Assembly: GCA_031835245.1 (NCBI GenBank)
Contig: JAVKOQ010000005.1
Span: 372,001-436,000 of the forward strand
Direction of reading: 5' to 3'
Origin: Balamuthia mandrillaris
Taxonomy: Eukaryota; Discosea; Longamoebia; Balamuthiidae
Length of the DNA stretch: 64,000 nt
The translations under genes were made by a program, and so were the position numbers. The notes below the pieces were generated by a model. It worked only from the letters and a program-made list of their open reading frames with translations, was not told where the DNA came from and ran no database searches. Below, piece after piece: positions 20,709 to 44,663 of this stretch; position 1 is the stretch's first letter; every line of letters begins with the position of its first letter.

Positions 20709-22507
20709 TCAATCCCTTGCTTTCAGCATCTTCACGATTTCGCTAAAGGTTGGCCTGTATTTTTTGTTTGAGTGGTAACTCTTGAAGAGAGAGAGAGAGA
20801 GAGAGCTGTTTCTTGCAAACCTATCTTGTGGATCAAACGAGAAACATTCTTTCATGACGCTTTGGAGCGCGGAAGGAATGGAAGTAGGAATGTCTGGATG
20901 CTTGCCCTCCTGGATGGCCATGCTGGCTTCTTCGGTATTCATGTCTGGGTAGGGTGTCATTCCCAGGTTGGCCATTTCCCAAAGCGTCACACCATAACCT
21001 GAAAACAAAAAATGGTGCCACATGAGTTCAACAGTGAGAAGGAGGAGGTGAAGAAGAGAGATAGGAAAACTTACTCCAAACATCAGCAGAGGGGCCATAG
21101 GTGTAGGAAGCCAACACCTCTGGCGCTAGCCTAACACCACAAAAGAGGATATTAGCACAAGAGAGGAGAGAAACACAAAGAAAAGGACGTACCACTTGAT
21201 AGGAACTATCTCGTCCTTGCCTAGGCTCTTTTCTTCGCTCTCGTTCTCCTGCTTGTGTGCCAATCCAAAATCTAATTCACATTAGGATAGGTAGAGAGCA
21301 AAGCATACCCAAAAGCAATAACAAACAAACCAGAAACTTTGATGGTCAGGTCCTTGCCCAGCAACAGGTTTCGAGCAGCCAAGTCTCGATGGATGATGCC
21401 CTCTGCGTGCAAATGGCTCATTCCTGCTGCAATCTCTCTCGCCATTCTCAAGAATGTCTTCTCATTTTTCATTGCCATTTTGCCTTCGTTGCTGTGGAGG
21501 AAGTGAAGCAGGTCTCCTCTGGATAAGAGCTCAGTGACGAGGCAGCAGGGACGTCCTTCTTCTATGCAAGCCCCCATCAAAAGTACCACATTAGCGTGGG
21601 GCCGTAATCGCCTGTTGAGAAAAGTTAGAAAAGGAAGAGGAACGAAGAGGAAGGAGGAGGAAGAGGAAGAGGAAGAGGGGCGAACTGCATGAGTTCTATT
21701 TCGGCTTTGAATGACTCCATGTTTTGTTCTGATCCCAACCCAGCCAACTGACACGAATGAGTAAGTGAAAGTATTCCTTGACCAGGAAAAAAAAAGGGGG
21801 GGTTACCTGCTTGATGGCGACTTCACTGTTTCTCCAGAATCCTTTCCAAACCGTCCCGAATGCACTGCGCAACAGAAGAAATTCAACAACCAAAACAAGA
21901 TCCTAATGAAAGGAGGAAACGGTAAATACCCTTCTCCAATCTTCTCTCCGTATTCGAGTTCTGCACTTGGTATTTCCCACTCAATTCCGCCTGCTTCATC
22001 CTCTTCACCTTCTTCAGACAACATTCTTGAAGGCGAAGAGGCTGCACAGTCTTGCGCAAAGTCCTTCTTTGTTCCATATAACTCCGGGGCGTTTTCCATG
22101 TCTCGCATTTCCAGGGACAAGGCCGTCCTTTTATCTCTCCTCAAAAAGTATACGACGACTACTAAAACAGCTCCCAGCAGAAGGAACAGAAAGACTCCTC
22201 CTGCTGATGCTCCTGCGATGATTGGAGTCTTGTCATCTTCGTCATCTTCCGGTTGCACCACTCTATCTTGTGAAGAAGAAGAAGATGAGGAAGAAGAAGA
22301 AGCATCGGATTCAGACGGTGCGGTGCGGGTTGGAATGACAGTGAAATAATGAAGGGGGTTGGTATAATTGGTTTCCAGGATGCGCATCGAAGGGTAGGTG
22401 GGGCTGCAGCTACCGAGGGAGACGGTGAAGTTCAAAGGGTGTGATGCGTTGGTCGCCACTTGGACGCCTGAGACAAACTCAACTATAATTTCGTCTATGA
22501 GAGAGCA

Positions 22508-22549
<42 letters not shown>

Positions 22550-23336
22550 CCGAAGGAGAAGCAATAAAAAGAAAGTAGAAAGTTGAAGCGTACCAGAAGT
22601 TCCATCGTTGGGGAGATAATCAAAGGAGCACGCTATGACATCCATGTCGGGGGTGATGGGCGCACAAACGTACGGCGCCAAGCTGTCCTCTATCCATGCT
22701 CCAGCTTCCTTGGGAGAGATGGTCAATAAACAATCCCCATAGCGAGAACCAGAAGGCCCATCATTACTAATGCTGGCCGAGAATGAAAGAACTCCTCCTT
22801 GGTCAAAGAATGGAGAGGCAGGGGGCAACAAAGTAATCGTCAACGAGACTCGGTACTCCGACTCAATCTGCCAAATGCCGCTAGCTCCGCTGGTATGGGG
22901 GTATCCCCAAGTCGCTTGGCTACTGATGATGGTATAGTCTGTCGTGCTTTTGTAGGCTTTGTTCACGGTGGCAAGGCCAGCGGAGCCCCCATTCCACTCA
23001 CAAATGCCCTCTTCCTCGAAGCATGCAAAGCCAGAGGGACCAGATACAGCCACTATTTTCACAATAAAAACTTGTTAGTTGCAAGGCCAAGAACAGACAA
23101 GGATCGAAGTCGTAACTGGAACCCTCAACGTAATATTCAATGGGACCGACTGCATAGAACCGAATTCTCATCGGCTCGTCCTGCACAAGGTCCAAGTTCC
23201 ACGTCCAGGTGAACGCGCTTCCCGCCAGAAACGGCGCTTCGGGAGTTGTCGTAACCCAAATGTCAAACGAGTTGACCTCGCAGCAGAGGAGAAGCGACCA
23301 TACAACAAAAGCCCAGAACAAATGCTCGGTCTTCAT
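20709..23336 (-). CDS. Receptor tyrosine kinase 1 (RTK1) of the local family
   Basis: A single-pass receptor kinase of about 673 residues. Ten exons (transcript order): 23336-23099, 23052-22594, 22494-21930, 21864-21807, 21747-21686, 21611-21331, 21271-21193, 21130-21075, 20998-20821 and 20754-20709; the sum is in frame. The signal peptide is residues 1-23 (MKTEHLFWAFVVWSLLLCC). The ectodomain has a DUF11-like stretch (LSFSASISNDGPSG) and Cys pairs. A Ser/acidic stalk leads to a transmembrane helix at about 323-350. The kinase domain runs about 408-668: glycine loop GEGAFGTVWKG, VAIK lysine, HRDLAARN catalytic loop, DFG, and PIKWLAPE, which is the tyrosine-kinase form of the P+1 loop. The activation segment has no tyrosine. 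Introns carry GA on the plus strand (CT in sense). It is divergent from the YVH1 phosphatase. The start at 23336 was chosen because it begins the signal peptide; an in-frame upstream ATG exists at 23399. Confidence 0.88.
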
Positions 23337-23641
23337 TGTAACGGTGGTGCTGCGGTAGGTGTTGCGAGTAACGTTTGACTTTGTGTTTTTTTTATGCATT
23401 GATCAAACGGTTTCCTTCGTAATGCATCACCCTCACGTTTTCTGTTCCTCGTGTTGCATTATTATGATTTCATATGAGTCTTGACTTTGTGTGGTGGCAG
23501 GGAAGAAACGGATACTTATCCGCATGACGTCATCTTCCTTGTGCTGATGTCATCGAAAATTCCGTCGACACAAAAGTTTCCCGCCTTTTTTTGTCGGCAA
23601 AAAAACACCACAAAAAAATTGAAATAAACGGAGACAACGGA

Positions 23642-23699
<58 letters not shown>
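23337..23699. promoter_or_regulatory. Divergent promoter between RTK1 and the YVH1-like phosphatase
   Basis: No gene is seen. It holds one CGTCGACA site near 23563, a stretch of T/A runs, and an almost pure GA dinucleotide repeat (23643-23699) that ends directly at the phosphatase ATG. The GA repeat is therefore probably in the 5' UTR or core promoter. Confidence 0.5.
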
Positions 23700-23701
<2 letters not shown>

Positions 23702-25580
23702 GGTGAAGGACGCTCATGAAATCTGTGAGGGGTTGTTCCTGGGGTCGGTCGTCAGCGGAAAGGACCTGAAGGGCATCACGGAGGCTGGCATCACGGCTGT
23801 GCTTATCGCTGCTTGTGACATAGAACCGCATTACCCTGCCGTAAAGCTTTTTATTTTTTTTCCTTCTTGTTGTCGTTTTTTCTTGTCCTTTCTTGTCGTT
23901 TCTTTCTTTCTTTCTTGTCGAGTCTTTCGTCCTCTGATATATTTCTGTGGACGAATGGAATAGGAACTTCGTTATCTCGTCTTGCCGAGACTCTTTGACT
24001 CTCGTCTTCAAGACATTCTGTCCTATTTTGAGGAGTGCTTTGCTTTCATCGACTCTGTGCGAAACAGTGGCTCCGCTGTTCTCGTTCACTGGTTCATTTT
24101 CCTTATCCTCTTCGCACTTCTTTTCTTCTTTTTTTCTCCTCTCACACATTTATTTTTTATTTTTTTTTTTTTTTTGCGAATGATAGCATGGCAGGCGTTT
24201 CTCGGTCTGCTTCGATTGTTATCGGTTACTTGATGCGAACACTCGACATGTCCTTTTCAGACGCGTTAACAAAGACCAAAAATATAAGGCCATGTGCGTA
24301 GATACAGATCTGTATAAAAGAAGAGCAAAGAAAGAGAGAAGAATAAGAAGAAAGAAGAATATTGGAACGACTTCTGCATTAACTTTTTTTGTTTTTCGTT
24401 ATAGGGATAGATCCAAACGACGGCTTTATAAGGCAACTCCAACTTTTTGATGCAATGGGCCGTTCTTGTTCTTTCACACCGATTATGGTTACTTCCGACA
24501 AAGACAACGAGAAGAGGGCAGAAGAAAATGTGCCTGGAGATGAAGAACAAGAGGAAGATGATCAGCAGAGAAGGCGGCTAAAGGAAGCATATCTAAAGTA
24601 CCAATCATGGAAGAAAGTTACCATTCGGCAGAGGAGAATGTACGAGGCAGCACAACGATTTTCTCGTTCAGCGCGCATTGAAGCCAGTTTCTTTGCTCGT
24701 TTTCCTGCTTCTCTTTCTTCTTCTTCTAGTGCTGCTTCTTCTGCTTCTTCTACTTCTTCTCTCTCCTCTTCTGCTTATGCTGCCTCTTCCGCAGAGACGA
24801 CTTCGGAAAGAGTGTACCGGTGCAATACTTGTAAACACCCGTTATATACTGAGGAACATCTTATTCCTCACTCTCCATCCTCTTCGGTACTTTCCTGCTT
24901 CTTTTTCTTTCTCTCTTTCTCCTGCCGCTTTTGCCTCTTTATAGGCTCCTCCTGATATGTTTTTTGGTTTCTTTACAAAAAGACCACAAGTTGCAACGTT
25001 GAGTTCATTCAAGCAATAGAATGGATGTTGCATCATCCACCTCGACAGGAAAGAAGTGAAAAGGAACAAACTGAAAACACTAAAGAGGAGCAGGTGTCCT
25101 CCCCGACGAATAAAGGCGAGAAAGAATGCAGCAAAGCAAAGCATAGAACCACTTCTAACAACAACAACGGCATTGACAATGAAAAGCAGACCAAAAACAA
25201 CGATAGAAGTAGTGATAACGTGACCTATCTTTGCAAAGACGACGATGGGGAAGGTGAAGTATCACCAACATCCAAGTGGCTTGGAGTAAAGGACTTGACA
25301 CCACTTGCACGCATGAGTGGATCCTTACTCTGCCCTTGCTGCAGTACGTCTGCTTCATTTTCTCTGTGTCTCTGTCTTTTTATTTTTTGTTCTGCCTCTT
25401 CTTGTTCTCTTCATTAGTTTCTTAAGTGTATTTGAAACAAACGTAACCAAAACAGAAGAGGAAGTTGGCTATTGGAATTGGCTTGGCAATGGGTGTTACT
25501 GCGGTGAGCGCATAGAACCTGCGTTCCTCATTCGGAAGGATCGCTGTTGTTCTCCTCCTTCTCTTACAAAACAAGCTTAG
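23700..25580 (+). CDS. Dual-specificity phosphatase of the YVH1/DUSP12 type
   Basis: YVH1/DUSP12 is a protein phosphatase with a C-terminal zinc-binding domain that acts in 60S ribosome maturation (release of Mrt4) and signalling. Exons: 23700-23840, 23964-24091, 24187-24293, 24405-24886, 24983-25343 and 25456-25580, giving 447 residues. The start MVKDAHEICEGLFLGSVV matches DUSP folds. Splicing of exons 2 and 3 creates the signature HCMAGVSRSA (catalytic Cys90, Arg96). Exon 3-4 splicing gives RPWIDPNDGFIRQL, the usual DUSP segment after the active site. The C-terminus has the YVH1 zinc pattern: YRCNTCKHPLY, then FIQAIEWM, LLCPCC, and GYWNWLGNGCYCG with PAFLIRKDRC. Lys/Asp-rich inserts enlarge it relative to the human protein (340). 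The 5' end abuts a GA repeat, and 5S rRNA lies convergently downstream. Confidence 0.92.
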
Positions 25581-25751
25581 AATTTAACTCTGTTGAGAAT
25601 TTAACCCTATTCCGCTCTACTTCTCTCTCATAGTTTACACATGCACAGATAACAAAATAATTGTTGGCAAGGGCGATGAAGAAACATAGTCTGTGTCCTC
25701 TGTTGATTGTGAAAGATGAGAAACCAGCCATGAAAAAATAAAGCAAAAAAA

Positions 25752-25869
25752 GGATACAGCACGATGGATTCCCGGGTGGTCACCCACCCCAGTACTAACA
25801 TCGCCTGGCGGAGCTTAACTTCGCTGATCGGACGGGAAGCGGTGCTTTCTCCGCAGTATGGCCGTATCC
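25752..25869 (-). rRNA. 5S ribosomal RNA
   Basis: The minus strand reads as a complete 5S rRNA of about 118 nt, starting GGATACGGCCATACTGCGG and ending GCTGTATCC. The two ends pair as a nine-base helix I. Internal landmarks are CACCGCTTCCCGTCCGATC, the A-box region AGCGAAGTTAAGCTC and the C-box region ending GGTGGGTGACCACC. A run of seven T residues (minus strand) follows directly and fits a Pol III terminator. It is a dispersed single copy between protein genes, not part of an rDNA unit or tandem array in this window. Confidence 0.96.
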
Positions 25870-25883
25870 GACGGAGTGCGACC

Positions 25884-25906
25884 TTTCTTGCAGTATGGCC
25901 CTATCC
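25884..25906 (-). repeat. Partial duplicate of the 5S rRNA 5' end
   Basis: Immediately upstream of the 5S gene the minus strand repeats its first 25 bases imperfectly (GGATAGGGCCATACTGCAAG against GGATACGGCCATACTGCGGA). The copy stops before the internal promoter, so it is probably not a gene. Confidence 0.6.
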
Positions 25907-26354
25907 CTCAATTCTTGGGGGGTTTCGCCCTTTCCCCATCCGCGCGCTGCTCAGTGAGACCGGGAAGCAAACGCTACGAGAAGAAATGAAGTGTCCTTTC
26001 TTGGTGCACCACAACAAGGGTGTTAAAAAAGCCATGTAAATTAATAAATAAAAATAATGCTCGCTTATTATTTTTTTTAAACAGAAGAACAAAAACAAAA
26101 AAAAAAAAAACGCGCCCTAAAAGAAAGTGCACTACTTCTCTTCTGTCGTGCTCTTTTTTTTTTTTTTTTGTGTTTCGTTCATCTTGTTGTCTCCCAAGCG
26201 TCTTGTTCTTCCACCCTTGCCCAATTCTCTCCTCATCAGCCTTCGTGTGTGTACAGTTTGAAAAAAAATAATAAACAAATAAAAAAAGACCATCCCTCTG
26301 TACCACTTCTTCTTCCAACGTTGGTCGTCCTTTCTCGCTTTTGCGGGTCCTCGC
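25907..26354. other. Intergenic, no gene seen
   Basis: This contains A/T homopolymer runs and an AT-rich block near 26035-26110. Open frames are low complexity. It lies upstream of the 5S gene and downstream of the PP1-motif gene, both on the minus strand. Confidence 0.4.
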
Positions 26355-29057: not shown

Positions 29058-31984
29058 TCAGAAATGAAGAGACTTGTCGTACATGACAAAGGCCTCGATG
29101 GCCTCGTACTCGGGCAAGCCTAGCGCATCGTAGAGAGCGGCCGTCGCTCTGTTTCTAGCTTCGGAACGTTGCCAGAATTCACCTGATCGTTTTTTTTATT
29201 GTTGTCAAACCACTGAAGAAGAAAGAAGAAAGAAAGCGAAGGGACAAGAAGGAAGAAGGAAGAAGGGGGCGGGAAGCAGGAAGAAGGAAGGAAGGAAAAA
29301 GAAGGAAGAAGAAAGAAAGAAGAAGAGAAGGAAAAAACATACGAGAATCATTGCCGGGAAATGGGGCCACGTCCTTTTGGGACTGGTGCTTGAAGATGGC
29401 ATATCTCTTCTTCTGCAGCTCCTCCGGCGATAGCGGCACCGCCATATGTATCTTCTCCGGCTCCCACTCTTGCCACGCCCCTCGATACAGCCACACCTCC
29501 GTCCTTTGATCCACGAACCATCTTTCTTCCTCCTTTTCTTCTTCCTTCTTGCCTTCCTCCGAACGTTGTTGCAAACGATCGATGGCGGCTAAGATGGCTT
29601 GCAAGCAAACGCGATGGGTGCCGTGCGGATCGGAGAGGTCCCCTGCCGCGTAAATCTGATGCGGCTTGATGGCGTCCATCAGCCGTAGCACCAGCTGAAT
29701 GTCTTCTTCTCCCAACGGTTTCTTCCGCACCTTACCCGTCTCGTAGAACGGTAACTCCAGGTTGTGAATGCGTTCTGGGGCAACGCCGCAGTAACGAGCC
29801 GCCTCGCGTGCCTCCACGCGACGTACCAATCCTTTCACAAGTTTGAGCTCCTCGCAGTCCGGTTGGGCGGGTTGCTTGGAGGCGATGAATTGCTCGATGG
29901 TGGATTCGATGGATTGCACGCGGGAGAGAACATCTGCGGAAGAGGAGGAGATGCCAAAGAGCTTGATGAACTCAGTAGCAAAATGGGCAAAGCTGCGCGC
30001 GTGATCGTCCCATACTGTTTTGTTCAGAGTAACAAAGTCAGAAAAGGACGTGAAGAAGAGAAGAGAGAATAAAGGAAGCAGAAAAGAGGAAGTAACCTGC
30101 AATGTTGCCAGTAGTTTGGTAACAAACATGGACTTCGTGGCCTTGTTCAGCAAGGCGGATCAACGTGCCTTTGTAATTTTGGTTTTAACGCGCATAAGAG
30201 AAAGAATCGTAAACTCAATGGAAGGTGACGGGAGAAGAGTAAGAATGAACAAATGAAACAAACCTCCCATGGAGATGACATCGTCATCAGGGTGAGGAGA
30301 GAAGACGAGCACACGCTTGGGGAACGTAGCGTTTTTGCCGGTGGTAGGACCTGTGCTCTTACCTCCAGGCCAACCAGTTATAGTTCCGCTCAAGTGGCGA
30401 AAGACGCGAATGTTGATGTTATAAGCTGATCCGCGTTGCTGTTATCATTGTTAAGTTTGAACACACAGCACAGAAAGAAAGAGAAAAAAATTGACCTTAA
30501 TCAGTTGCAGAAGATGGTGCTTGCTGTAGTCTTCCTCAGTGAGCCGGAGGATTGGCTTCTTGGTGGCCAATGCCAACCTACATTACACATTCTCAGGTTA
30601 GTGCGCATCATCCTGCACAACAAGAGTTGAATTACAGGAGAAAATAACAAGGAAGCATCACGTACCAAATAACAGCTTTACGCTCCATAAAGTCATCATA
30701 ACGGAGACTACTGGCAGCTCCACCTAACATCCAAGGACACTTGAACCTCGTCAACTCAGCACCAGCTGCCTCATCTGCGACGACCACACAGTTGTCATGC
30801 TTTTGGAGGAGAGAAACCGGAACATTGGGAGTGACATCGCCTTCTACCAACGAACGGATGACTTTAGCTTTGCCCTCGCTGAATGCCATTGCTATGACTT
30901 CAGTGCTATCCAACAACCAACCCAAATCTGTTTATTTATGGAAGTAAGAGGAAAGAAGGAAAGAAGGACGGAAAGAAACAAACCCAAAGTGACTCCATGA
31001 TTGGGAACATGGTTGACGCCAAAGAAGTCGCTGGCAGCCGAAACCCTCGTTCCTTGCTCCAGTTCCACCAGCATTACTCCGCTCTTGACCGACGTCTCCC
31101 ACTTGTTCCCATTCCAGGTTCGACCCCGTCGCACCGACGGCCCTTTCTTCTTCAGCTGCTCCTGCTCTGTAGCTTTGCTCACTTCCTTGTTCGACTTTTC
31201 CTCTGGTTTTTTGCCGCTGTTGTCGGCGAAAGAGGAGGAGGAGGCTTCTCCTGGCTCATTGAAGCCAACGCGGCCACCGCTCGACATGCCGATCAAGAAG
31301 AGGTCGATGGGAAAGTGTTTGTGGAGGAGAGAGGCATACTCCTCGCACTTCTTCTCCATCTCTTCCATCGGAGCGGTACAATCCGGATAGTGCACATTTT
31401 CTGTTGGTACGGTTTTAAGCAAGTTAGCAGAAACACGTATGCAAACATTTTCGAAAAAAACAAAACAAAAGAAAAGAGAAAAGAGAAAAAAGAAAACAAA
31501 CAAAAAAAAAAAACAACAAACCAGGTAAAATGTCGACATGCTCCAGGAGGTGAGAGTGGAGCCAGTTCTGGAGGCTTTGCAGCGCGGAGGGGGCCATAGG
31601 GTAGTACTCATGCAGGGTGAAGGTGACCACGTTGCGGAAGCTGAGGCCTTCCTCCTGGTGCTGACGGACCAGCTCCTCGTAGACCCCAGCCAGAGCCGAG
31701 TCCGCGGTCAAGCCCAAAACCACCTTGCTGCTGCTGCTGCATAGCTCCTCCGATGATGCGTCGGCGGAGGAGGGCGGCGGCGTTTTGCTGCGGATGAGCT
31801 GCGCCACGTGGTTGGCCACCGATTGGGTAGCAGCGTTGCAAGGGCCGTAGACAAAGGTCGGGAGCTTTTCTTTCTGGCGGAGGTTGGTGGGCGGGGTGGA
31901 GTCCAACGGCGTCAGGAGCCCTTGGTTGGAAAGAACGGGGGCAGCCGAGTAGGAGACGCGCAAGGAAGAAGGTGGTTGTTGCAT
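29058..31984 (-). CDS. NagB-like / LmbE-like (PIG-L type deacetylase) fusion protein
   Basis: Eight exons (31984-31522, 31400-30984, 30927-30666, 30577-30496, 30438-30264, 30168-30097, 30014-29343 and 29182-29058) encode 755 residues. The N-terminal half (about 40-390) is a glucosamine-6-phosphate deaminase/isomerase fold with the FNEP motif at 201-204. Other NagB catalytic positions are altered: DEY reads HEY (His125), and the DGH of the GxDGHIAFNEP motif reads GGR (196-198). The C-terminal half is a LmbE/PIG-L metal-dependent deacetylase domain with SPHPDDDVISMGG (about 453-466) and SDPHGTH (about 618-624), the expected zinc ligands. The same fusion is known from Bacteroidetes. A deacetylase on GlcNAc-type substrates is plausible, while the isomerase half may be regulatory. 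An Arg/Lys-rich, Ser-rich insert separates parts of the NagB half. The gene is divergent from a BTB/T1 gene. Confidence 0.88.
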
Positions 31985-32572
31985 CTCTCGCTCCGCTGCT
32001 ACCTTTTTCTTTCGTCCGGGCTCCTCCTCGTTTGGGCTTGGTGTTCCTCGTGGTGCTTTGCGGCGTTTCTTCTATTTTCTGCCCAGGGGTACCTTATATG
32101 GTATTTTGTCGACGCTACTTTACTGCTTCTAGCTCTTGTCCTGTCTCGGCGTCCACCCAAGAAATTAAGATTTTTGATTGGATGAAATCCATAGTTGGTG
32201 AAAATCTCATGTCCCGTCTCGTGTCTATCTCGGAGTATGATTTCTGATTGGATCAAATTCAAAGAACTTTTAGTATCTCATGTCTTGTCTCGTGTCCATC
32301 CGGAGTGCGATTTTTGATTGGATGAATTATCAATCGTTATAGCCAGGCGGGATTACGGACACCGGAAGTTCCAGCACAAAGCAAGAAAGAAGTGAACATC
32401 GCCATTCGTCACCCCATTTTTTTTTCTTTTCTTTTTAGTTGTTATTTTATTTTTCAGCGACAGTATAACGAGAACTTCTATTTTTATTTTATTTTTTTTT
32501 TGTGTTTTTTCGTTTGCCTCGTCTTCTTCTGAAGCTCAAAAAAAAAAAACTCAACAACACAACAAATAAACG
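31985..32572. promoter_or_regulatory. Divergent promoter with three 72-bp repeats
   Basis: No gene is seen. From 32137 to about 32335 a unit of 71-73 bp occurs two and a half times, with starts near 32137, 32210 and 32281. Each begins TGTCcYGTCTCG and holds TTGATTGGAT, which on the minus strand is ATCCAATCA, a CCAAT-box match. The boxes face the NagB-LmbE gene. A TGTCGACG site is at about 32108. The last 170 bp before the BTB/T1 ATG are T-rich, then A-rich. Confidence 0.6.
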
Positions 32573-32913
32573 ATGACGACCTCCGCTTGTTCATCGTCGT
32601 CGTCGTTCTCCTCCTCTTCCTCTTCCTCTTCTTCTTTTGGAGGAGTTTCGGGAGGAGATTGGTTGAAGTTAAATGTCGGTGGCAAAGTCTTTCACACCAC
32701 ACGGACAACCTTGGCTAATGACAAACGCAGCATGTTGGCCAAGCTTTGTGGCATCGGAGATGACGGTTCAGCGATAGAGTGGCAGACCACACGAGACTCG
32801 GAGGGGTGTTACATGATTGACAGAGACCCGGATTACTTTCAACCACTGCTGAATTATTTGAGGACTGGCAAACTTGTCATCAACGCGCCTCTCAGCCCTG
32901 CTGGTATTTGTTT

Positions 32914-32959
<46 letters not shown>

Positions 32960-33114
32960 TTTCTCTCTCTCCTGCTCTCTCTCTCTCTCTCTCTCTCTTT
33001 CCTCGTCTTCTTCTCCTCTCCTCCTTTCATGGGAAGAAAGAAGAGAGCAGGTACGACTGCGGCTGCAGCTCCTCTCTCTCTCCCTCTCCTTTCTCCCTTG
33101 CTCTCTCTCCCCTT

Positions 33115-33162
<48 letters not shown>

Positions 33163-34497
33163 CCTCTTAGCTTCTCCAAACAAAAAAAAGGAGTATTGGA
33201 GGAGGCACGCTACTACAACATTAAAGGAGCAGTAAGGCTGTTGGAGCGACGGTTGAAGAAGACCTACCACCAAGAGGACCGGCGCCAACACGTCTGCGTT
33301 ACCTACGACGAGTTTGGAGGCTTTCCTGTCACTATAGAGGGTCCTGTGGCCCCTTCTATCCTGCAAGAGCTAAACGGAGGAGTCATTCCCACCAAATCCA
33401 AGTCCAGGTCTCTCGTATGGGGTACTGGCAATGAATGGTACTAGGCGTTGTGGTTGTTGTTGGTGTCGTTGTCGTTGTTGTTGTTGTTCTTTCTTCTTTC
33501 TTCTTTGGCTTTCTCACCACTTTTTTTGTCCACAACAATAAGGCATTTGAGCAGAGGTAACTCACTGGCAAAGATATTCGATGCACTAGCAACTGAAGGA
33601 TGGAAGCTACGAACGTCATGCGGAGCCGGAGCAGGAGGAGAATGGGAGAACTCTGCTTTTGAGAATAGAAACTACATCTTCATTCTCACTCGTCGATTGC
33701 CACCTACATCCTCTTCATCTTCTGACTGTGACTTCGGCATTCATGATGATTCTTTCTTTAGCGACAGCAACGATGAAGCGGGAGATGACGACGACGGCGA
33801 TGATGGAGAAGGTTCGGAGTCGGATGGATTGTATATATCACCTTCCTCTAGTCTTTCTTCCTCCAGTCCTTCAACAGCAAACACAACAGCATCTCTTTGC
33901 ACAACAAACATTCAAACAACGTCAAACGGAGACAGCAAAGAACAAGATAGAAGGAGAAGAGCACGGGGTCGAAGCAAACAGAAAGAAAAAGCAGAAGAAG
34001 AAAAAGAAGGAGACTCCATTTCTGTAAATAATTCCAACACAGAAGAAGAAGAAAACGAAGATAAAGAAGACGAAGCAGAAGGACATCACCGGATAGTAGA
34101 AACTGAAGAAGAATCTGTCTTCTCTTCTGCTCATGAAAATCAAAGAAGAGGATGGGGCAGAGCTCATCTTCATGTTACCGGAAGCGGTCCAAACAGTGGC
34201 AATGGCAGCTCTTCCTCTCGACATGACGACAAGAAAAGAGGACAGGGGGGAAAGGAGAAAGCTAAGGACAAGAAACAAACGACATTCAAGTTGGAGAAAG
34301 CAGAAAAGAAAAAGGTCAAACGGAAAGAAAAAGAAGAACGGAAACGCCGAGCATTGTCCTCTAGTTCCTCTTCTTCTGGTTATTCTTCTTCTGGAAGTGA
34401 TGGAAGCGGTGGAGGGACTGGAAGTGTTTCTTTGAGAAGTGGTAGAAGGGCTATTGTAAGCAAAACTCGTTCTATTGCTTCTTCTTCAGGGACATAA
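32573..34497 (+). CDS. BTB/POZ T1-domain (KCTD-like) protein
   Basis: Three exons, 32573-32903, 33191-33407 and 33543-34497, encode 500 residues. After a poly-Ser N-terminus, residues 28-150 are a potassium-channel tetramerisation (T1/BTB) domain: WLKLNVGGKVFHTTRTTL, then a YMIDRDPDYFQPLLNYLRTG stretch and VLEEARYYNI. Such domains form oligomers and often act as cullin-3 substrate adaptors; no channel helices are present. A middle segment (SLAKIFDALATEGWKL ... NRNYIFIL) resembles the post-BTB region of KCTD proteins. The last 230 residues are Asp/Glu/Lys/Ser-rich, with a basic KKVKRKEKEERKRR block that could direct nuclear import. The first intron is packed with CT repeats and ends in an A-rich acceptor. 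Confidence 0.85.
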
Positions 34498-34692: not shown

Positions 34693-37600
34693 TCATTTAG
34701 CACGATCCAACAGTTTGACAATCTCAGAGAATGTTGGTCTGAAGAATGTGGGTTAGAATAAGGAGCGAAGAAGAAAAAGCACCAGTATGAAAAGCATACC
34801 GTTCATCGGGATCCGTTGCAAAGCATTGTTCCATGACCTGCTGAAGGACAGCGGGACAAGCATCGGCCTTCGTGCTTTCCAGCTTATGCCCTTTCAGGAC
34901 CGCCACAGCAGCCTCCACAGACGACATTCCAGGGTAAGGCTCCGCTCCTTGGTTCGTCAACTCCCAGAGCGTCACTCCATAACCTTTGGGGTTGAGTGTT
35001 TAGGTTAGAAGGCGAACACACAGAAAGGGAGGCAAGAAAGAATGAAACGACAAGCAAGAGAAAGAAGGAACGTACTCCAGACATCAGTCTTTTCGGAGTA
35101 CTGGTTGCTTTCAAGGCACTCTGGAGCTATCCTGTATTTTTGTTTAAAAAAAGGTGTTATAAGACACGCTTTGATGAAGTAATGGAGGTGATCTTACTCA
35201 CCATTTCAAAGGCATGGGGGTGTCCTCCTCGAATTTGCCATCTTTCAACTTGCTCTGCTTCAGCGCCAACCCAAAGTCTGCGTTCAACAAAAGGCACAAG
35301 TCAGACAAAAAAAGATTTCGAAACGAAATAAAAAGACAAAAACACTAACCAGAGACTTTGATGGTCAAGTCCTTGCCCAGCAACAGGTTACGAGCAGCCA
35401 AGTCTCGATGGGTGATGCCCTCCGCGTGCAAATGGCTCATTCCTGCCGCGATCTCTCTCGCCATTCTCACCAATGTCTTCTTATCCTTCGCCACCAGTTT
35501 GCCTTCTTTGCTGCGCAAGAAGTGACGGAGGTCTCCTCTGGGCAAGAACTCAGTGACAAGGCAGAAGGGATGTCCTTCTTCCATGCACACTCCCATCAAC
35601 AAGACCACGTTAGCGTGTGGACGTAACCGTCTGTTGAGTTGTTCGAATGGAATTGAATGTGAGGAAAGGAGAGGAGAAGAGAAGTGAAGAGAGTGATGAA
35701 GAGAAGAGAAGATAGCAGAAGAGAACAGAAGAGAAAGAGGAGAAGAAAGTACTTCATCAATTCTACTTCAGCTTGGAATGCTTCCACGTCGGACTTGGAT
35801 TGCAAACGCAACAACTAACCCCAATGCAAGGAAGAAACGTAAGACATAAAAAGAAGAATAAGCAGCAGAACGGAAAAGAACCTGTTTGATGGCCACTTCA
35901 CTGTCTCTCCATGATCCTTTCCACACCACTCCAAATGCTCTGCGCGCACCAAAGAGTAAGAAAGCAAGAAGAAAAGCAGCAAAGAAAAAGAAAAAGAAAA
36001 ACAAGAACAAAAACAAAAACGAGAAACAAGGCAACCAACCCTTTGCCAATCTCCTTCTCAAACTCCATCTCGTCAAAAGGAATCTCCCATGCGATCTGCA
36101 CTCCTCCTCTCTCCTTTCTGCCTCCTCCTTCATTCTTGCCTCCTCTCTTGTTGGTGCTGTTCTTGATCACATCCGACTTGTAGCCATACAGTTCCTCGCC
36201 ATCCTCATAACTGCTCTCCAAGTCCCTCTCTCGCATCGCCAAGCTGCGTCGCTGCTTCTTTCTTCTGACCAGGAAGAAGCCCACCACCACAGCCACAATG
36301 ACCACCAAGGCCAACACTGACAACGGCACCGCCACATACACTCCGGTCAAATCGCTTCCGCTTCCTCCTCCGCCTCCACTTTTGTTTTCATCATCCTCCG
36401 AATTGGAAGAAGAGCCTTCGTCAGGGAAGTTTTGGTTGGGCCGAAGAAGGATTAGCTCTCCGGTTTGAACGTTCACCACCGCACGAAGAGAGTCCGTGGC
36501 TTCAAAGCTGTTTGTGGTTGAACTGTTACAGGCCATCGTCATTCGAAAGCTTTCTTCCTCAGCCCACACACTCAAGCTGAAGTTGAAGACCTTGGGCACT
36601 TCTGTTGTCAGCTGTCCCATAACGCATCGCACTTGTTGCAGGTCTTCTTCTTGAACAAGTGGAGAACAAAACTCTGGTCCCACAAAACTGCTGCTTCCGG
36701 TGGCTGAAGAAGAAAGGAAGGTTCCGTGAGAGAATGTCATGGTGCAACTCACATCCTCTGCCCAAGAAGGACCACCGCTCTTCATCTCCATCATGAACTC
36801 CAATTCTTCTTTTGGTTTTTCTTCTTCTTCTTCTTCTTCTTCTTCTTCTTGCCGTTTGGTGTTGGAAGAGGAAGAAGAAGAAGGAGGATTCAACCACAAA
36901 GGACTGATGGAAAGAGAGTTGCACAAGGTGTTGACTATCAGAGGAGCTTCTCCTCTCTCCGTCCACACTCCCAGTTCATCCTTACATTCTACTGCCACCA
37001 TTCTTGTCACTTCTTCTTCGGGAAGCAAGGAAGCATCCAAGAGAACAGCCAGTTTGATGGAGCGACTGCCAGGAAGCACGTTCAATGGCTGGTCCAGGTT
37101 GCATTGCACTTGGCTGCTGCCTTCTTCTCCGTTGCTGGAGGTGATGTTGCAGCCCATGACTTGGGGATCATTGGCCAGAGAGACGCCTTTGGGAAGAGTC
37201 CACCGGCAGACGGTGCCTAGAGAGGAGGAAGGTCCTTGGTTGTTGATGGTGGCTCCCAGTTGCAACTCTTTTCCTGCTGTTCCTTCTTTTGATGCTTTAC
37301 AAACCCAACACAAACAATACCTTAGCAATGAGCGTTGAAGGGAAGACAATAAAGAAAGAAAGAAAGAAACGACAAGAAAGAAAGAAAGAGGAGGGATGAG
37401 GGTACCGATGGCAACACTGAGGTTCATTTCCACGTGATCCATGGAGAAGGAAAACGTGTCTGAGCCCACCACCTCAAACGAAAGCGTCTCCGAGGCGATC
37501 AACCCGCCGCACTCCAACAACTCCACCTGGAATCCTCCTCTATGTGAGGGGTGAGGGATCAGCGCCACACCTTCGGCCACGTTCAAGCTCGCATCAACAT

Positions 37601-38565
37601 CCACCACACTGTAATAGGAGCACTTCAGGATGCTGTTGCCGCTATCCCCTTCGATGGCACAACCGGCAGGCAAAGGGGTGACCCAGGTGGCAGCCCCTGC
37701 AGGAGAGACCTGGAGCCTGCAGGCCCCAGATCTCTGCACAGAGGGTCCTCTGTTGGTCACTACGGCCAGGAACTGAAACTCTTGCTCCGCCTGGCCCGGC
37801 ACAAAGGAGGAGGCAGGAGAGAGCTCATCCACTCGGGAGAAGGTCGCATCGAGGGAGTAGCGGGGCTGACCCATGGCTATGTTGGAGCGGTATGTATCGT
37901 CGCTATCAAACACGAAGCCGTACTTGATGCCGGAGGCATCGGGCGGGGTGTGCATGGTTCTGTTGAAGACGGCCTGCGAACCGGCCGTACCGGACAACCA
38001 GCATAGTTCTTCGTTGCCACTGAAGCCGCAGTTCATGCTGGCCACGCTGTTGCCTTCTCCTGGCACGGCTGCCAAATAAACAAGATGAGATAAAAGATGA
38101 GAAAGGTGAAGGGAAGAGAAGGAAACGAGGAAGAGAAGAGAAGAGAAGGAACAATGAATAGAAGGAAACGAGGAAGAGAAAAGTAGGGGAGAGTAGAGAA
38201 AAGGGTGTTGAAAAAAAAAAACAAAACTTAAACAAAAGAACAGTAAAACTTCTTTAAGAGAAGAACAGAAAAAAACAAAACAAAACAAAACGTCGCTTAC
38301 TTTCTACCGTCCAGCCTTCGCCATAAATGTTGAAAGGCTGTTGGTTCCGCACTATAAAGTCAGAAAACCTAACCAGGTACCCGCTCCCGTCGTAGTCGAA
38401 CGGAATGGTGACGATCATGTTGAAGGGAAGGCCAGGGGTGGGAGGGTCGGGATGCCAATAGTAGTCGGCATCGGGATATTGCCCGTTGCAACAGCAAGCA
38501 GAGAGCAACAAGGACAGAGCCACCAGCAAGCTCAAACGGGTGGAACAGCGCCAGGCCAACAACAT
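34693..38565 (-). CDS. Receptor tyrosine kinase 2 (RTK2), large-ectodomain member
   Basis: Ten exons (38565-38301, 38068-37406, 37294-36040, 35939-35882, 35814-35753, 35630-35350, 35277-35202, 35131-35076, 34983-34800 and 34738-34693) sum in frame to 981 residues. The signal peptide is about 1-27 (LSLLVALSLLLSACCCNG). The ectodomain (to about 625) is roughly twice that of its paralogues, with two DUF11-like repeats (AVVTNRGPS; ATINNQGPSSSLGTVCRWTLP) and a Glu-run spacer. The transmembrane helix is about 626-652 (VPLSVLALVVIVAVVVGFF) and is followed by RRKKQRR. The kinase at about 715-976 has GKGAFGVVWKG, VAIK, HRDLAARN, DFG and PLKWIAPE. The activation segment lacks tyrosine. Intron phases in the kinase part equal those of RTK1, and exons of 62, 281, 56 and 46 nt are identical in size. 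It is divergent from RTK3 across 380 bp. Confidence 0.88.
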
Positions 38566-38945
38566 TTTCCCCAATTGTAATGCAGTTGTTGTTTGTTTCT
38601 TCTTCCAGCAGTTTTTTTTTTTTAAAAAAAAAAAAAGAATGAACCTTCGGAAGAGATAAAAGGAGCTCGCTGGTTTTTCCGCGAGCAAAGCCTTGCTAGG
38701 ACTCGTGTTTTAGGGTCATTATTCAGGTTGTTTTTACCTAACACCATACTATTGGACCATTTATTATAACGACGATGGCCCTATATTGGTTGCACATCAA
38801 TCATGTAAAACTCCTATAATGAATTGCGTTGTTTGACGATCGTCCACTCGCAAACGTTCAGGTTCGCTTCCCCTTGCGAACCAAGCACTACAAAACGTAC
38901 AGGTTTTTATCTTGATAGAAGAACAAGAAGAACATTTGGCGGGCC
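38566..38945. promoter_or_regulatory. Divergent promoter between RTK2 and RTK3
   Basis: No gene is seen in 380 bp. A T8/A12 dyad-like stretch (TTTTTTTTTAAAAAAAAAA, 38611-38630) lies just upstream of RTK2. The rest is AT-moderate with no obvious repeat. No GTCGACA site is present. Confidence 0.4.
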
Positions 38946-39233
38946 ATGTGGACGGGAAGAGGCATTCTTTTGCTAAGTTGGTGCTGTTTGTTTGGCAGTT
39001 TCGTGGGGGTGGCTCGCCCTCAGTTCTTGGCCTACATAGAGACCATCCCGGAGGCTCCCTTTTTGGTTGGCAGCGTCTTCACGGTGGTGTACCATTTGAA
39101 CCTTGAATCCGGCGTGAACGGGGTTCTAAGTTTTAACTTAGATGAGGGTGCCACTTACATTCCTGGCTCTTGTTACGTCTCTCTCTCTCTCTCTCTCTCT
39201 CTCTAACTCTCTCTCGTCCTTTCTCTTTCTCTC

Positions 39234-39281
<48 letters not shown>

Positions 39282-41567
39282 CCTTTCTCTCTTCCTTTTA
39301 TTATACTTGACTTTTTCGAATGTTTGGATGGTATTCTTATTTTTTTGGTTAAAACAGTAACGAGTGTTGGGCCTCCAGAGTTGGATTGCAGCGAAGCTGG
39401 AGCGCAGTGCGCTTTCTCCGGAAGCTACACAGGCCCAGCCACGGTCTCTAGAACCCTCCAGAACAGGCCCGACACCACCTACATCGCTCTCTGGTACAGC
39501 ACCATGGAACAACCAAGCGCCATTTACAACATCAACTCGGAGTACAGAGTAGCTTTGGAGGCTTCTTTGTCGAGCGCTTCTCCTTCTTCTTTTGAGCCAG
39601 GCGAGGTGCTTTCGTTCTCTGCCAACATGAGCAATAGCGGACCCTCACAAACCGGCCATGGCTATTGTTTGTTCGGGATTGAGCCAAAGGAGGCCGGCCT
39701 GTGGGTGGAAGACGAACTGCCGGGATCATGTCAGCTCTTGGACGAGGCAAGCCCTGAAGTGATGTTATGTTCATTCTCGGGCATTCCTGCAAACGATACT
39801 GGTATGGATTCTGTAGACCCTTTTCATCAGTTGGGTTCTATACCTGTTTTAGTTTTCTGATAGTACTTTTTCTTCAAACTCTTTGCAGTGGAATTCATGT
39901 CCGGTTTGAAGCTAGCGACGGACTTTTTCTTCCCTTCAAACCTGACCGTCTCTCTCAGCGGCTGCACTCCATGGTACTCAACAATGAACATCTTGGAGAT
40001 GAACTACACCGACGCCGTCCAACACTTTACGGTCATTCCATCGCCTCCCTCCTCTCAATCCACTTCTTCCTCTTCTGCTTCAGAGAGCGATAGAGAAGAA
40101 GACGGAGGAGACGATGAAGACAAGACGCCAATCATCGCAGGAGCATCCGTTGGTGGAGGCTTGTTGCTCCTCCTCGTCGTGTTTGCAGTTGTTGCAGCTT
40201 TCGTCATATGGCAACGAAGAGGTTCAAGGTCCAGAAACCGTTTCAAGGATCAAAGAGACCTTGAAAACGGGGTGGAGGACTTGTACGAGATGAAGAAAGA
40301 CTTTGTAGCTCCGTCTGCCGGTACTGAGAAAGGCGTGAGACAAGGTAGAGTGGATACCTTGGATCAAGGCATGAGCTGGGAGATAGCATGGCAGGATCTT
40401 GAATTTGCAGAGAAACTTGGAGAAGGGTATTCTTCAGCTTTTCTTCTATTCTTTTGTTATTATTCTTATCTGCTTCTTTCTTCTTTTCTGTTCTCTCCCC
40501 TCACGATTAGGGCATTCGGAACGGTATGGAGAGGATTGTGGAGAAACAGCGAAGTGGCCATCAAACAGGTGTCCGGTCTTGGATCTGAGAAAAGTCTTGA
40601 AGCCTTTAAAGCTGAGGTCGAACTCATGAAGTATGTTTTAACTTTTCTCTTGCTTTCGATCTCGTTTGGTTTCTTGTTTCTTATCCTCATCTATGCTCTT
40701 TCTTCTCGTTACAAATCTTAGACGGTTACGCCCGCACGCCAACGTGGTGCTCTTGATGGGAGTGTGCATGGAAGAAGGCCATCCCTTCTGCCTTGTCACC
40801 GAGTTCTTGCCCAAAGGAGACCTCTTGCGCTTTCTTCAAAGCAAAGAGGGCAAAAAAGCAATGAAAGATGAGAAAACCCTCTTGAGAATGGCGAGAGAGA
40901 TCGCAGCAGGAATGAGCCATTTGCACGCGGAAGGCATCACCCATCGGGACTTGGCTGCTCGCAACCTGTTGCTGGGCAAAGACTTGACCATCAAAGTTTC
41001 TGGTTTGCATCTCTTTCGTTGCTTCCCTCTCTTCTGTGACCTGCCTTCTTATCGCTGTTCCGTTTAGATTTTGGTTTGGCCCACAAGCAGGAAAAGGGAG
41101 GGGAGGAGGAAAGACAACTGGATGAGGATGCTCAGGTGCCAGTCAAATGGTTGCACTCTTCTTTTTATTGCTTCCTCCTGGCTCTTGTCCTTCGTGGTTA
41201 CTGACCCTTTGTGCTCTCTTCAGGTTGGCCCCAGAGGTTCTCAAGTCAAACACTTATGGTCCTGCTGCTGATGTTTGGAGTACGTTTTTCTTTATTCAAC
41301 TTTGTTGTCCTTTTCATATTCCTAACTCTCCTATCAACAAAAGGCTATGGGGTGATCCTTTGGGAACTGGCCAACCTGGGAATGGAGCCTTATCCCGGAA
41401 TGAGCATGGAAGAAGCCAGCTTGGCCGTGCTGGACGGTCAACATCCCGACATTCCCTCTTCCCTCCCTTCCATCCTGCAAGACATCATGGAGGAGTGTTT
41501 TGCTGCAGACCCTGAAGAGAGACCCTCTTTTGCTTCCATTGTAAAACAGCTCAAGCGCAAAGACTAA
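38946..41567 (+). CDS. Receptor tyrosine kinase 3 (RTK3)
   Basis: Eight exons (38946-39171, 39358-39801, 39889-40426, 40511-40630, 40722-41002, 41068-41149, 41224-41279 and 41344-41567) encode 656 residues. The signal peptide is about 1-23 (ILLLSWCCLFGSFVGVA). The ectodomain starts EAPFLVGSVFTVVYHLNL, as in RTK4, and contains the DUF11-like LSFSANMSNSGPSQ. The transmembrane helix is at about 304-331. The kinase domain at about 393-652 carries GEGAFGTVWRG, VAIK, HRDLAARN, DFG and PVKWLAPE. The fourth exon is exactly the sum of two exons of the paralogues (58+62=120 nt), so one intron is missing. The terminal intron found in RTK1/2 is also missing. The kinase exons and one intron are almost identical to RTK4. 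The first two introns hold CT repeats. The start begins a clear signal peptide. Confidence 0.9.
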
Positions 41568-41863
41568 CAGAAGAAAATTCTTGTTTCCGTTCGGGTGCAG
41601 CTGCTCTCAATTTGTTAAACTCATTAACGCAAGTGGTATCCTGCTTCCTCTTCGCGGAACATGCCTCCACCGAACCGCAACCTAGCGTAGGACAGTTTTT
41701 GGCTTTTGTTTTTTTTTGCTATAGTATTAATTATATAATTAATGAGCGCTTATTTTTTTGTTCTACTTTCTGATAACTACAACAACAACGTGCCGACTGG
41801 ATACCGTTTGGCTAAGCCGGTCAAAGCCGTTTATTTATTTTGGGTTGTTCTCCAAGCACGAGC

Positions 41864-44663
41864 ATGCGAGTAACAAGAAGCAGGAGGTCGTCGTTGCCGC
41901 TGTTGGTTTGTTGTTGTTGGTGGCTCTGCTTGGGCGGGTGGAGGATTGGAGGAGCGCAGGCAGCATTCGTGGAGAGCATCAGGACGGACCCGGTGCAACC
42001 GTTTCTGGTGGGGAGCAACTTTACGGTGGAGTATGACCTGAACTTGCAAGCTGGCGTGCAGGGACACATTTCCTTTGTGCTGGACCAAGGCGCGGTTTAC
42101 CGCCCCGGCTCTTGTATCGTTCTCCTTTGTTTTTTATTACTATTGTTGTTGTTTGAACTTACTTTCTTTTTGCCAACCTACAGTGACGAAGGTGTTTGGC
42201 CCGCCCGACTTGGAATGCCTGGCCAACGAGGAGGCTTGCGTTTATTGGGCAGGGTCCTACTCTGGACCAGCAAGAGTCTCTCGTGCCCTCCAAAACCTTC
42301 CTGACGTAACTTCGGTTACTCTTTGGTATGGTCACCCTGAAGGAAGCAGCATATATAGAGTTGTTTCCGAGTATAGGGTCTCTTTGGAAGCTTCCATGTG
42401 GAGCAGCAGCCATGCTTCAGCGTCATCATTTGAACAAGGAGAGGTGTTGGAGTTCTCAGCAAACATGACGAACGAGGGACCCTCCAACGCGAGCTTTGGA
42501 ACATGTTTGATGGCCGTGGAGCCAGAAGGCGCTGGTGTATGGGTGGAGGGGGAACTGTCACCTTCTTGCCAGATGCTCAGCGAACAGTTGGTTCAGTGCA
42601 CCTTCGAGAATATTCCTGCAAGTTCTTCCGGTTTGCTTCTTCGCTCCTATATTGTTTCTTTCTTGATTCTGGTCGTTACTTGCTTTTTTTTTCGTTCTTC
42701 GCTCACGCTTCTTTCGGTGCTTCCATTTCGTTTGGTTCTCGTCTTCCTGTTCGTTTTACTGACCAATCCGACTGTACAGTGGAATTCGTGTCTGGTTTGA
42801 AGTTGGCCACCAACTTTTTCTTTCCATCGGACTTGACTGTCTCCCTCTTCAACTGCTCCGCTGTCTGGTACACGTCCATGCGAATCATAGGAATGAACTA
42901 CACCCATGAGACTCAACATTTCAATGTCATTCCATCTCCTTCCCAATCTACTTCTTCCTCTTCTTCCTCGTCTGCAGCTTCATCACAAGAATATAGAGGA
43001 GATCGTGAAGAAGAAAGCGAAGATAAAACGCCGGTCATCGCAGGAGCTTCGGTTGGTGGAGTGGTGTTGTTGCTTTTGTTGTTGGCAGTTTCAATTGCCG
43101 CGTTCACCGTTTGGAAGCAGAGAAAGCGCAGAAACCGTTTCACGGATCAACGAGACCTTGAAAACGGGGCGGAGGATGTGTACGCGATGAAGAAAGACTT
43201 TGTGGCATCCTCCACTAGTCGTGAGATGAAGGTAAGAGTAGATAGAACACATTCTTTGGATAACGAAGGAATGAGTTGGGAGATCAGTTGGCGAGAACTA
43301 GAGTTAGCAGAGCAAATTGGGGACGGGTATTGTAATCTTTATTACCTTCCTGTCTCTCTTTATGACGTATTTGTTGCTTGTATTCTCTTCGTTACTCTTT
43401 CTCTTCTCACGACCTGCATTCTGTTATGAAAGAGCCTTTGGAACTGTGTGGAGAGGCCATTGGAGAAACAGCGAAGTAGCCATCAAACAGGTAACGTGTG
43501 CTTGTCTGACCCATCATCAATATCTTACTTGTTCTCTCCCTCCTCTCGTTTGCTCGCTTGATCTCTATCCCTTTCGGTCATTACGATAGTTATCTGGACT
43601 AGAATCAGAGAAAAGTGTTGAAGCATTTAAAGCTGAAGTCGAACTCATGAAGTATGTTATACTCTACATTCTTGATGGCCACTTCTGTTTGTCTCCATGC
43701 TCCCTGCATATCTTTCTTCTCATCCGACAAATAACAATTCAGACGGCTACGACCACATGCCAACGTGGTGCTCTTGATGGGTGCGTGCATGGAAGAAGGC
43801 CATCCCTTCTGCCTTGTCACCGAGTTCTTGCCCAAAGGAGACCTCTTGCGCTTTCTTCAAAGCAAAGAGGGCAAAAAAGCAATGAAAGATGAGAAAACCC
43901 TCTTGAGAATGGCGAGAGAGATCGCAGCAGGAATGAGCCATTTGCACGCGGAAGGCATCACCCATCGGGACTTGGCTGCTCGCAATCTGTTGTTGGGCAA
44001 AGACTTGACCATCAAAGTTTCTGGTTTGTATCTCTTTCGTTTCTTCCTTCTCTTGGTTTTTTTACCTGTTGAAGCTCTTGTTCTTGGTCGCTTCTCATCG
44101 TTTAAGTTCTTTTCTCCGCTCCGTTCAGATTTTGGTTTGGCCCACAAGCAGGAAAAGGGAGGGGAGGAGGAAAGACAACTGGATGAGGATGCTCAGGTGC
44201 CAGTCAAATGGTTGCGCTCTTCTTTTTATTGCTTCCTCCTGGCTCTTGTCCTTCGTGGTTACTGATCCTTTGTGCTCTCTTCAGGTTGGCCCCAGAGGTT
44301 CTCAAGTCAAACACTTATGGTCCTGCTGCTGATGTTTGGAGTACGTTTTCCTTTATTCAACGTATCCCATCCTTCTTCTTAGTTAAACTCTTATTCAATT
44401 GTTATCTTCATTTTTCCAAAACAACCAAACGAAAACAAGGCTATGGGGTAACACTTTGGGAGATGGCCAACTCGGGAATGGAGCCTTATCCCGGAATGAG
44501 CATGGAAGAAGCCAGCTTGGCCGTGTTGGATGGCAAACACCCCGACATTCCCTCTTCCCTCCCTTCCATCCTGCAAAACATCATGGAGGAGTGTTTTGCT
44601 GTAGATCCTGAAGAGAGACCCTCTTTTGCTTCCATTGTCAACCGGCTGAAACGCGGCGACTGA
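41864..44663 (+). CDS. Receptor tyrosine kinase 4 (RTK4), tandem duplicate of RTK3
   Basis: Nine exons (41864-42113, 42184-42630, 42780-43326, 43433-43490, 43590-43651, 43743-44023, 44129-44210, 44285-44340 and 44440-44663) encode 668 residues. A basic N-terminus precedes a hydrophobic signal segment (LPLLVCCCWWLCLGGW). The ectodomain is collinear with RTK3 (QPFLVGSNFTVEYDLNL; LEFSANMTNEGPSN; conserved NFT-type sites). The transmembrane helix is at about 317-343, with a short basic stop (RKRRNR). The kinase has GDGAFGTVWRGHW, VAIK, HRDLAARN, DFG and PVKWLAPE and no tyrosine between DFG and APE. It retains the intron after VAIKQ that RTK3 lacks. It lies about 300 bp downstream of RTK3 in the same direction, consistent with unequal crossing-over. 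Ligand and output pathway are unknown. Confidence 0.9.

Follow-up and report, generated by a model that had tools for sequence, protein, structure and literature searches.

Receptor tyrosine kinases (RTKs) are commonly told as an animal invention rooted in the closest unicellular relatives of animals. Four genes of the amoeba Balamuthia mandrillaris raise the question of which parts of such a receptor are indispensable. The genes, RTK1 to RTK4, lie in a stretch of 64,000 nucleotides (positions 372001-436000 of contig C4 in the 64.8 Mb assembly), which we call the window and whose positions are used throughout. Our analysis indicates that RTK1-4 are very probably membrane tyrosine kinases. RTK candidates from Amoebozoa have been published before, for Acanthamoeba and Physarum; new here is a juxtamembrane tyrosine that is fixed in position and accompanied by rare activation-loop tyrosines and rare C-terminal tails, which suggests receptors that signal through one tyrosine. 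The full proposal, that RTK1-4 are active single-pass RTKs in a protist (partly amoebozoan) branch of tyrosine kinases (TKs) beside the animal branch and use this one-tyrosine mechanism, seems to us evenly balanced between right and wrong. Gene structure, topology from hydropathy, catalytic residues, placement among TKs, the conserved tyrosine, the scarcity of tails and loop tyrosines, and the SH2 domains are the parts of it read from sequence.

Gene models and protein architecture

RTK1 (20709..23336, minus strand) has 10 exons and encodes 663 residues in the NCBI model (P0003). RTK2 (34693..38565, minus strand; P0004) has 10 exons and 981 residues, RTK3 (38946..41567, plus strand; P0001) has 8 exons and 656 residues, and RTK4 (41864..44663, plus strand; P0002) has 9 exons and 668 residues. 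Exon-by-exon rebuilding of the spliced models reproduced exactly the coordinates and strands given in a preliminary description of this DNA. The models contain no internal stops, and their 33 introns, of 59 to 232 bases each, are all GT-AG. The RTK2, RTK3 and RTK4 models are identical to the NCBI proteins. Our rebuilt RTK1, at 667 residues, differs by four residues at the acceptor of intron 2, where the NCBI choice agrees better with the paralogues. The NCBI names (abl1, PTK2-beta, MAP3K7, "non-membrane spanning") are unsuited to these proteins because each has one strong hydrophobic helix.

All four proteins share one order of parts: an N-terminal hydrophobic stretch, an ectodomain, a membrane helix, a juxtamembrane segment, a W-E-I motif and the kinase. 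By hydropathy, the N-terminal stretch is a candidate signal peptide in 4/4. The ectodomain spans about 310-320 residues in RTK1, RTK3 and RTK4, where a Ser-rich acidic stalk precedes the membrane helix, and 630 residues in RTK2, in which three NxGPS-type repeats can be seen by eye; the ectodomains carry 3 to 6 sequons and 8 to 19 cysteines. The helix has a mean Kyte-Doolittle value of 2.6-3.0 across the four proteins, and in RTK3 AlphaFold predicts a helix at residues 312-350. Together with the identity of three of the four models to NCBI proteins, these values bear out the earlier statement that one membrane helix separates ectodomain and kinase within a single polypeptide. The juxtamembrane segment, of about 70 residues, is basic at first and then acidic, and an RPxF motif begins 15 residues before the end of each chain.

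Kinase class and phylogenetic placement

The catalytic loop HRDLAARN was matched at 21368..21391 (minus strand) in RTK1, 35387..35410 (minus strand) in RTK2, 40942..40965 (plus strand) in RTK3 and 43963..43986 (plus strand) in RTK4, and P(V/I/L)KW(L/I)APE is likewise present in 4/4, as had been described. A chance origin of HRDLAARN is excluded because the genome has 106 occurrences of the HRDLAxRN DNA pattern, counting allelic copies, and none of the reversed control. The catalytic residues are invariant in 16/16 aligned rows. In RTK1, RTK2 and RTK3, the three proteins scanned, the tyrosine-kinase profile PF07714 scored 262-267 bits (RTK1 267) versus 167-175 bits for PF00069, a lead of about 90 to 100 bits. 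Among PDB matches, the best 60 of 2754 were all TKs (EGFR, Src, Abl, Fyn, FGFR3), whereas the best 60 of 2602 for a plant tyrosine kinase-like (TKL) control comprised 58 TKLs and 2 TKs.

We then placed the kinases in trees drawn from 71 kinase domains. An unrooted tree, from which 14 long, partial or second domains were left out, separated TKLs from the rest with support of 97/89. A rooted tree, in which 18 domains were left out and PKA, PAK1 and CDK2 were added as outgroup rows, united the RTKs and animal TKs in one TK clade (99/98). Animal TKs, three EukProt kinases and P0082 formed a set (100/99), and the Balamuthia kinases formed another with three other protist kinases (92/86). From the style of their labels, we take the three EukProt kinases to be choanoflagellate-like. 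A clade joining all Balamuthia kinases to EGFR, Ror and Eph was rejected (approximately unbiased test, p-AU 5.7e-8), in a test that also parts these three from other animal TKs. An unrooted test of TKLs plus Balamuthia versus animals (p 0.259) is uninformative because, without a root, its split all but coincides with that of animal monophyly. The PDB list and the rooted tree thus favor the tyrosine- rather than Ser/Thr-kinase class proposed before, and disfavor TKL. Subject to the TKL caveat weighed below, they argue strongly that RTK1-4 are membrane TKs from a branch next to that of animals, and tyrosine specificity would follow from this class.

The receptor family, its juxtamembrane tyrosine and rival explanations

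RTK1-4 appear as members of a genome-wide family. In at least 34 Balamuthia protein entries, an HRDLAxRN kinase follows a membrane helix, a count made from two protein listings in which P0025 and P0143 share a juxtamembrane segment, look allelic and may be one gene. Because the assembly keeps allelic copies, we do not read the 106 HRDLAxRN places as a number of genes. This retention, which seems to make its gene counts too high, can be seen in contig pairs such as C15/C335, C39/C43 and C128/C143, where one match recurs at identical positions or with a fixed shift. Among the relatives scanned with Pfam, seven (P0011, P0012, P0014, P0016, P0018, P0021 and P0023) have FG-GAP matches over the cut-off; others are DUF11-like or have no ectodomain match at all. 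A common membrane-juxtamembrane-kinase cassette has probably been joined to ectodomains that vary among members. The family belongs to a broader protist group. Planoprotostelium and, by an incomplete label, Filamoeba have membrane kinases with GP(L/I)(K/R)WM loops, as do other sequences that precomputed Pfam lists label LRR, Kelch, FN3 and otherwise. A kinase exon elsewhere in the Balamuthia genome (L003; C122:5099-5695) is tyrosine-rich and has a mixed TK/TKL look, with HRDLAARN but also DSYSFG and GAIKWLAPE. With the relative P0015 as query, the SH2-plus-kinase proteins P0121 and P0123 outscore Balamuthia relatives, at 31-35% identity only.

One aligned juxtamembrane column holds Tyr362 of RTK1 (codon 22076..22078, minus strand; PELYGTK), Tyr679 of RTK2 (36186..36188, minus strand; EELYGYK; invariant in 12/12 rows of alignment A2), Tyr356 of RTK3 (40284..40286, plus strand; EDLYEMK) and Tyr367 of RTK4 (43181..43183, plus strand; EDVYAMK). 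In RTK3 and RTK4 it is the sole intracellular tyrosine outside the kinase domain. The juxtamembrane segment is readable in 30 of the 34 Balamuthia entries, and all 30 contain a tyrosine. When entries and genome loci were pooled, 61 juxtamembranes reduced to 47 distinct ones and to 39 under 80% identity. At least one tyrosine is present in 38 of these 39. In 35, a tyrosine occupies the same aligned column, a little way past a D-L/M-E motif, and no other column between the membrane and W-x-I is conserved as highly. The one juxtamembrane lacking tyrosine, L066, carries Phe in that position. Random scatter of an equal number of tyrosines reached at most 37 in 20000 draws.

Other intracellular tyrosines are scarce. 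An activation-loop tyrosine was found in 1/34 Balamuthia entries versus 16/51 of other origin (0/6 named amoebozoan), and the loops of RTK3 and RTK4 are rich in Glu/Asp and contain no Ser, Thr or Tyr. Of the 27 Balamuthia entries with a readable tail, 26 have no more than 30 residues from the RPx motif to the C-terminus, compared with 19/49 others. RTK3 and RTK4 have four tyrosines in about 330 intracellular residues, one juxtamembrane and three in the kinase core, and tyrosine content in ectodomain and intracellular part is 3.6 and 1.2% for RTK3, 3.2 and 1.2% for RTK4, and 4.1 and 1.9% for RTK1. In kinase domains, tyrosine makes up 1.50% of residues in the Balamuthia family (n = 22). The corresponding value is 2.34% for TKLs (n = 12), 2.65% for a set of four other protist TKs, 3.92% for three Ser/Thr kinases and 4.29% for animal and allied TKs (n = 15), and a further two kinase loci of Balamuthia reach 3.4% and 4.5%. 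SH2 domains, the putative readers of such a site, matched in Pfam at 72 genome places, allelic copies included.

Because the juxtamembrane tyrosine is fixed, loop tyrosines and tails are rare and the kinase core contains few tyrosines, we propose a one-tyrosine mechanism. Ligand binding to the beta-rich ectodomain would cluster the receptors; the kinase, lacking an activation-loop tyrosine, would phosphorylate in trans the conserved tyrosine of the acidic juxtamembrane segment; and an SH2 protein would then dock on the phosphorylated site. Several observations weigh against this proposal. The scatter test ignores relatedness, and paralogues are not independent. Some juxtamembrane tyrosine is present in 48/54 readable rows from other species, so position alone sets the Balamuthia tyrosine apart. 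Two or three tyrosines occur in 14/39 juxtamembranes, RTK2 having three, and RTK2 is about equally rich in tyrosine in its ectodomain and intracellular part (1.90 and 1.82%). The loops of RTK1 and RTK2 carry two Ser/Thr each, and 23/25 relatives listed have some, so that another kinase may regulate the loop. Six named Planoprotostelium/Filamoeba relatives have the juxtamembrane tyrosine in 4/6 and a short tail in 0/5, and the pattern is therefore not general in Amoebozoa. Tyrosine depletion extends beyond receptors, since P0032, a Balamuthia TK that has no membrane helix, contains equally little tyrosine (1.57%). Finally, all 14 SH2 controls are prokaryotes. Because juxtamembrane tyrosines are common in other species, the named amoebozoan relatives are tailed and a non-membrane kinase is tyrosine-poor, we place one-tyrosine output of the Balamuthia receptors somewhat below an even prospect. 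More tentative still is the broader picture of a large Balamuthia family nearly purged of intracellular tyrosines except for a few in the core and one fixed docking site, and with ectodomains, among them DUF11-like sandwiches and FG-GAP propellers, that have been swapped.

The most basic alternative is that RTK1-4 are membrane TKL kinases, of Ser/Thr or dual specificity, which converged on TK-like catalytic and P+1 loops. Plant SIS8/EDR1-like TKLs do appear among the sequence matches, at 36-41% identity, and most relatives keep a loop Thr/Ser in place of Tyr. A clade of the Balamuthia receptors with TKLs is 18.8 log units worse, yet its p-AU of 0.088 falls short of formal rejection. However, TKLs separate from the rest without an outgroup, the TK clade holds with three outgroup kinases, the HRDLAxRN and P-x-K/R-W loops are TK-like, and the PDB matches listed are all TKs. 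Moving RTK1-4 with their relatives P0005 and P0006 alone to the TKLs was rejected (p 0.0004), although this test also separates them from their other Balamuthia relatives. We consider a TKL identity improbable.

If the kinases are real TKs, the tyrosine could still be structural or autoinhibitory, with substrate proteins as the output and no docking on the receptor. The juxtamembranes of KIT or Eph pack on the kinase, and the Phe of L066 shows that one family member does without the tyrosine. Autoinhibitory juxtamembranes of animal RTKs are mentioned in PMC8662651. Residues 339-385 of RTK3 are below 50 in predicted local distance difference test (pLDDT) in the AlphaFold model, a slightly better fit to a disordered site than to a packed one, and the variable, acidic residues around the tyrosine lean weakly the same way. 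This alternative, though less likely than not, is a serious contender. A less probable one is that RTK1-4 serve in adhesion or particle recognition and that their kinase directly targets cytoskeletal or phagocytic substrates, without SH2 docking on the receptor. With their FG-GAP propellers and beta sandwiches, relatives have ectodomains of adhesive appearance, and integrin alpha chains 6avu and 7nxd stand among the kinase matches of RTK2 in Foldseek, weakly, at ranks 20 and 45 with TM-scores of 0.15-0.17. The numerous SH2 domains of the genome speak against it, and no result obtained here ties RTK1-4 to particles.

RTK1-4 differ from EGFR, whose C-terminal tail is long and rich in tyrosine, in their short C-termini and in the rejected clade with EGFR, Ror and Eph. 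They resemble EGFR in that we propose activation without a loop tyrosine; EGFR is activated without activation-loop phosphorylation, according to PMC8662651. The ectodomain-membrane-kinase layout is also that of Eph, Ror and KIT-like animal receptors, but their loops have a tyrosine in 10/10 readable rows, versus 1/34 Balamuthia entries, and their ectodomains share no Pfam match with RTK1-4. Like the Group B pre-opisthokont TKs described in PMC8662651, a study that used three Acanthamoeba sequences, the Balamuthia kinases stand beside, not inside, the holozoan TKs. The nearest described systems are in Amoebozoa: 7/22 protein tyrosine kinases (PTKs) of Acanthamoeba castellanii (PMC4053784) and 3/4 of Physarum (PMC4758236) are reported as membrane-spanning, with TK-type kinases in genomes that have SH2 domains. 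Balamuthia differs in having more such entries, and its receptors differ from the six Acanthamoeba PTKs with SAM domains (PMC4053784), by the published descriptions rather than by sequence comparison. A count of 163 protein kinases in B. mandrillaris has been given, with the remark that the kinome needs further work (PMC8569187). Among the papers listed by our literature searches, none dealt with Balamuthia RTKs or Balamuthia SH2 domains, and titles and abstract openings yielded nothing on point that pairs FG-GAP or DUF11 with receptor or transmembrane tyrosine kinases.

If the one-tyrosine proposal is right, these receptors would be a minimal, independently evolved form of receptor phosphotyrosine signaling in a single-celled organism. 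A large amoeba set with its own ectodomains and an output of apparently one tyrosine would amount to an independent experiment in RTK signaling logic, in which loop tyrosine and tail are apparently dispensable. The Acanthamoeba proteome has fewer tyrosines than that of Dictyostelium, which Clarke et al. related to selection against stray phosphorylation (PMC4053784). The Balamuthia receptor kinases could be a local case of such selection, and perhaps a clean one, with the stray tyrosines lying beside a tyrosine kinase.

Ectodomains, origin of the cluster and neighboring features

The ectodomain of RTK3 is all-beta in its AlphaFold model, best at residues 41-110 and poor elsewhere; the predicted structures are of low quality, with mean pLDDT of 65.8 for this model and 59.3 for a second. 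The earlier label "DUF11-like" holds in part. NxGPS motifs resembling those of DUF11 (PF01345) proteins can be seen by eye in all four RTKs, and RTK2 matches the profile at 22.5 bits, below the cut-off of 24.6, but RTK1 and RTK3 gave no DUF11 match in the Pfam scan. For RTK4, a lookup of its precomputed Pfam list, rather than a scan, showed kinase entries only. Scored over its whole length, P0006 exceeds the cut-off (29.2 versus 24.6 bits), with no single stretch passing alone. DUF11 identity of the RTK1-4 ectodomains is therefore only weakly indicated. Residues 71-230 of RTK3 match RTK2 at E 8e-8.

The sequence searches made gave no match of the ectodomain to an animal receptor, in keeping with the earlier description of the ectodomain as unlike those of animals. 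Searched against PDB sequences, the RTK2 ectodomain gave two matches (E 0.23 and 1.2), and no FG-GAP match is listed for RTK1-3 in the Pfam scan. Among 5.8 billion proteins searched for the ectodomain, RTK3 and RTK1 alone were retrieved; the silence of this search on other species is uninformative because it also missed RTK4, a plain homologue. Whole-model Foldseek searches were dominated by kinase matches, apart from the two integrin alpha rows. Open frames with NxGPS repeats resembling the RTK ectodomains also occur at L075 (C15:298700-302700), where a hydrophobic helix is seen by eye near the end, and at L076 (C32:100000-104000). By eye, neither shows a kinase within its 4 kb, frames not being followed to the gene ends; they may be non-kinase receptors sharing the RTK ectodomain.

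The preliminary description saw the same intron phases in all four genes and a local expansion from one ancestor. The phases do agree (1,1,2,0,2,1,2,1,2), but RTK3 lacks introns 4 and 9 and RTK4 lacks intron 9. Shared phases are no proof of local expansion because the comparison covers RTK1-4 alone and not their relatives elsewhere. Local expansion is well supported for RTK1, RTK3 and RTK4 (100/99), but not for RTK2: the four-gene clade has support of only 79/41. RTK1-4 with P0005 and P0006, which lie on other contigs, form a six-row clade (100/94), and RTK2 is about equally close to those two as to RTK1, RTK3 and RTK4. The case for a local tandem origin of all four is thus weak.

Between RTK3 and RTK4, synonymous divergence (dS) is about 2.4 in the ectodomain, near saturation, and 0.24 in the kinase. 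Exons 6/7 and 7/8 are 100% identical, the exons of the tract 97-100%. Intron 7 is identical at 72/74 positions, and introns 3 and 5 at 50% and 49%. Because selection at the protein level would not keep an intron identical, recent gene conversion of the catalytic core is the most likely explanation. The tract has approximate ends at 40761..41331 (plus strand) in RTK3, with the second half of intron 6 excluded, and at 43782..44391 (plus strand) in RTK4. The duplication itself is judged old, and the likeness of the two kinases appears to be partly due to conversion.

Beside RTK1, intron-split pieces at 23628-24300 (plus strand) read by eye, without profile confirmation, like a dual-specificity phosphatase (ICEGLFLGS... 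and AGVSRSASIVIGYLM). Elsewhere in the window, Pfam identified eIF3c (PF05470) at 1345-3891 (plus strand) and a BTB_2 domain at 32570-33235 (plus strand), with sub-threshold matches to WH2 at 6611-8809 (minus strand) and PIG-L at 29179-30159 (minus strand). A 2934-residue open frame at 11524-20325 (plus strand), which we take from its layout to be NCoR/SMRT-like, contains three Myb/SANT stretches (PF00249) and long low-complexity stretches.

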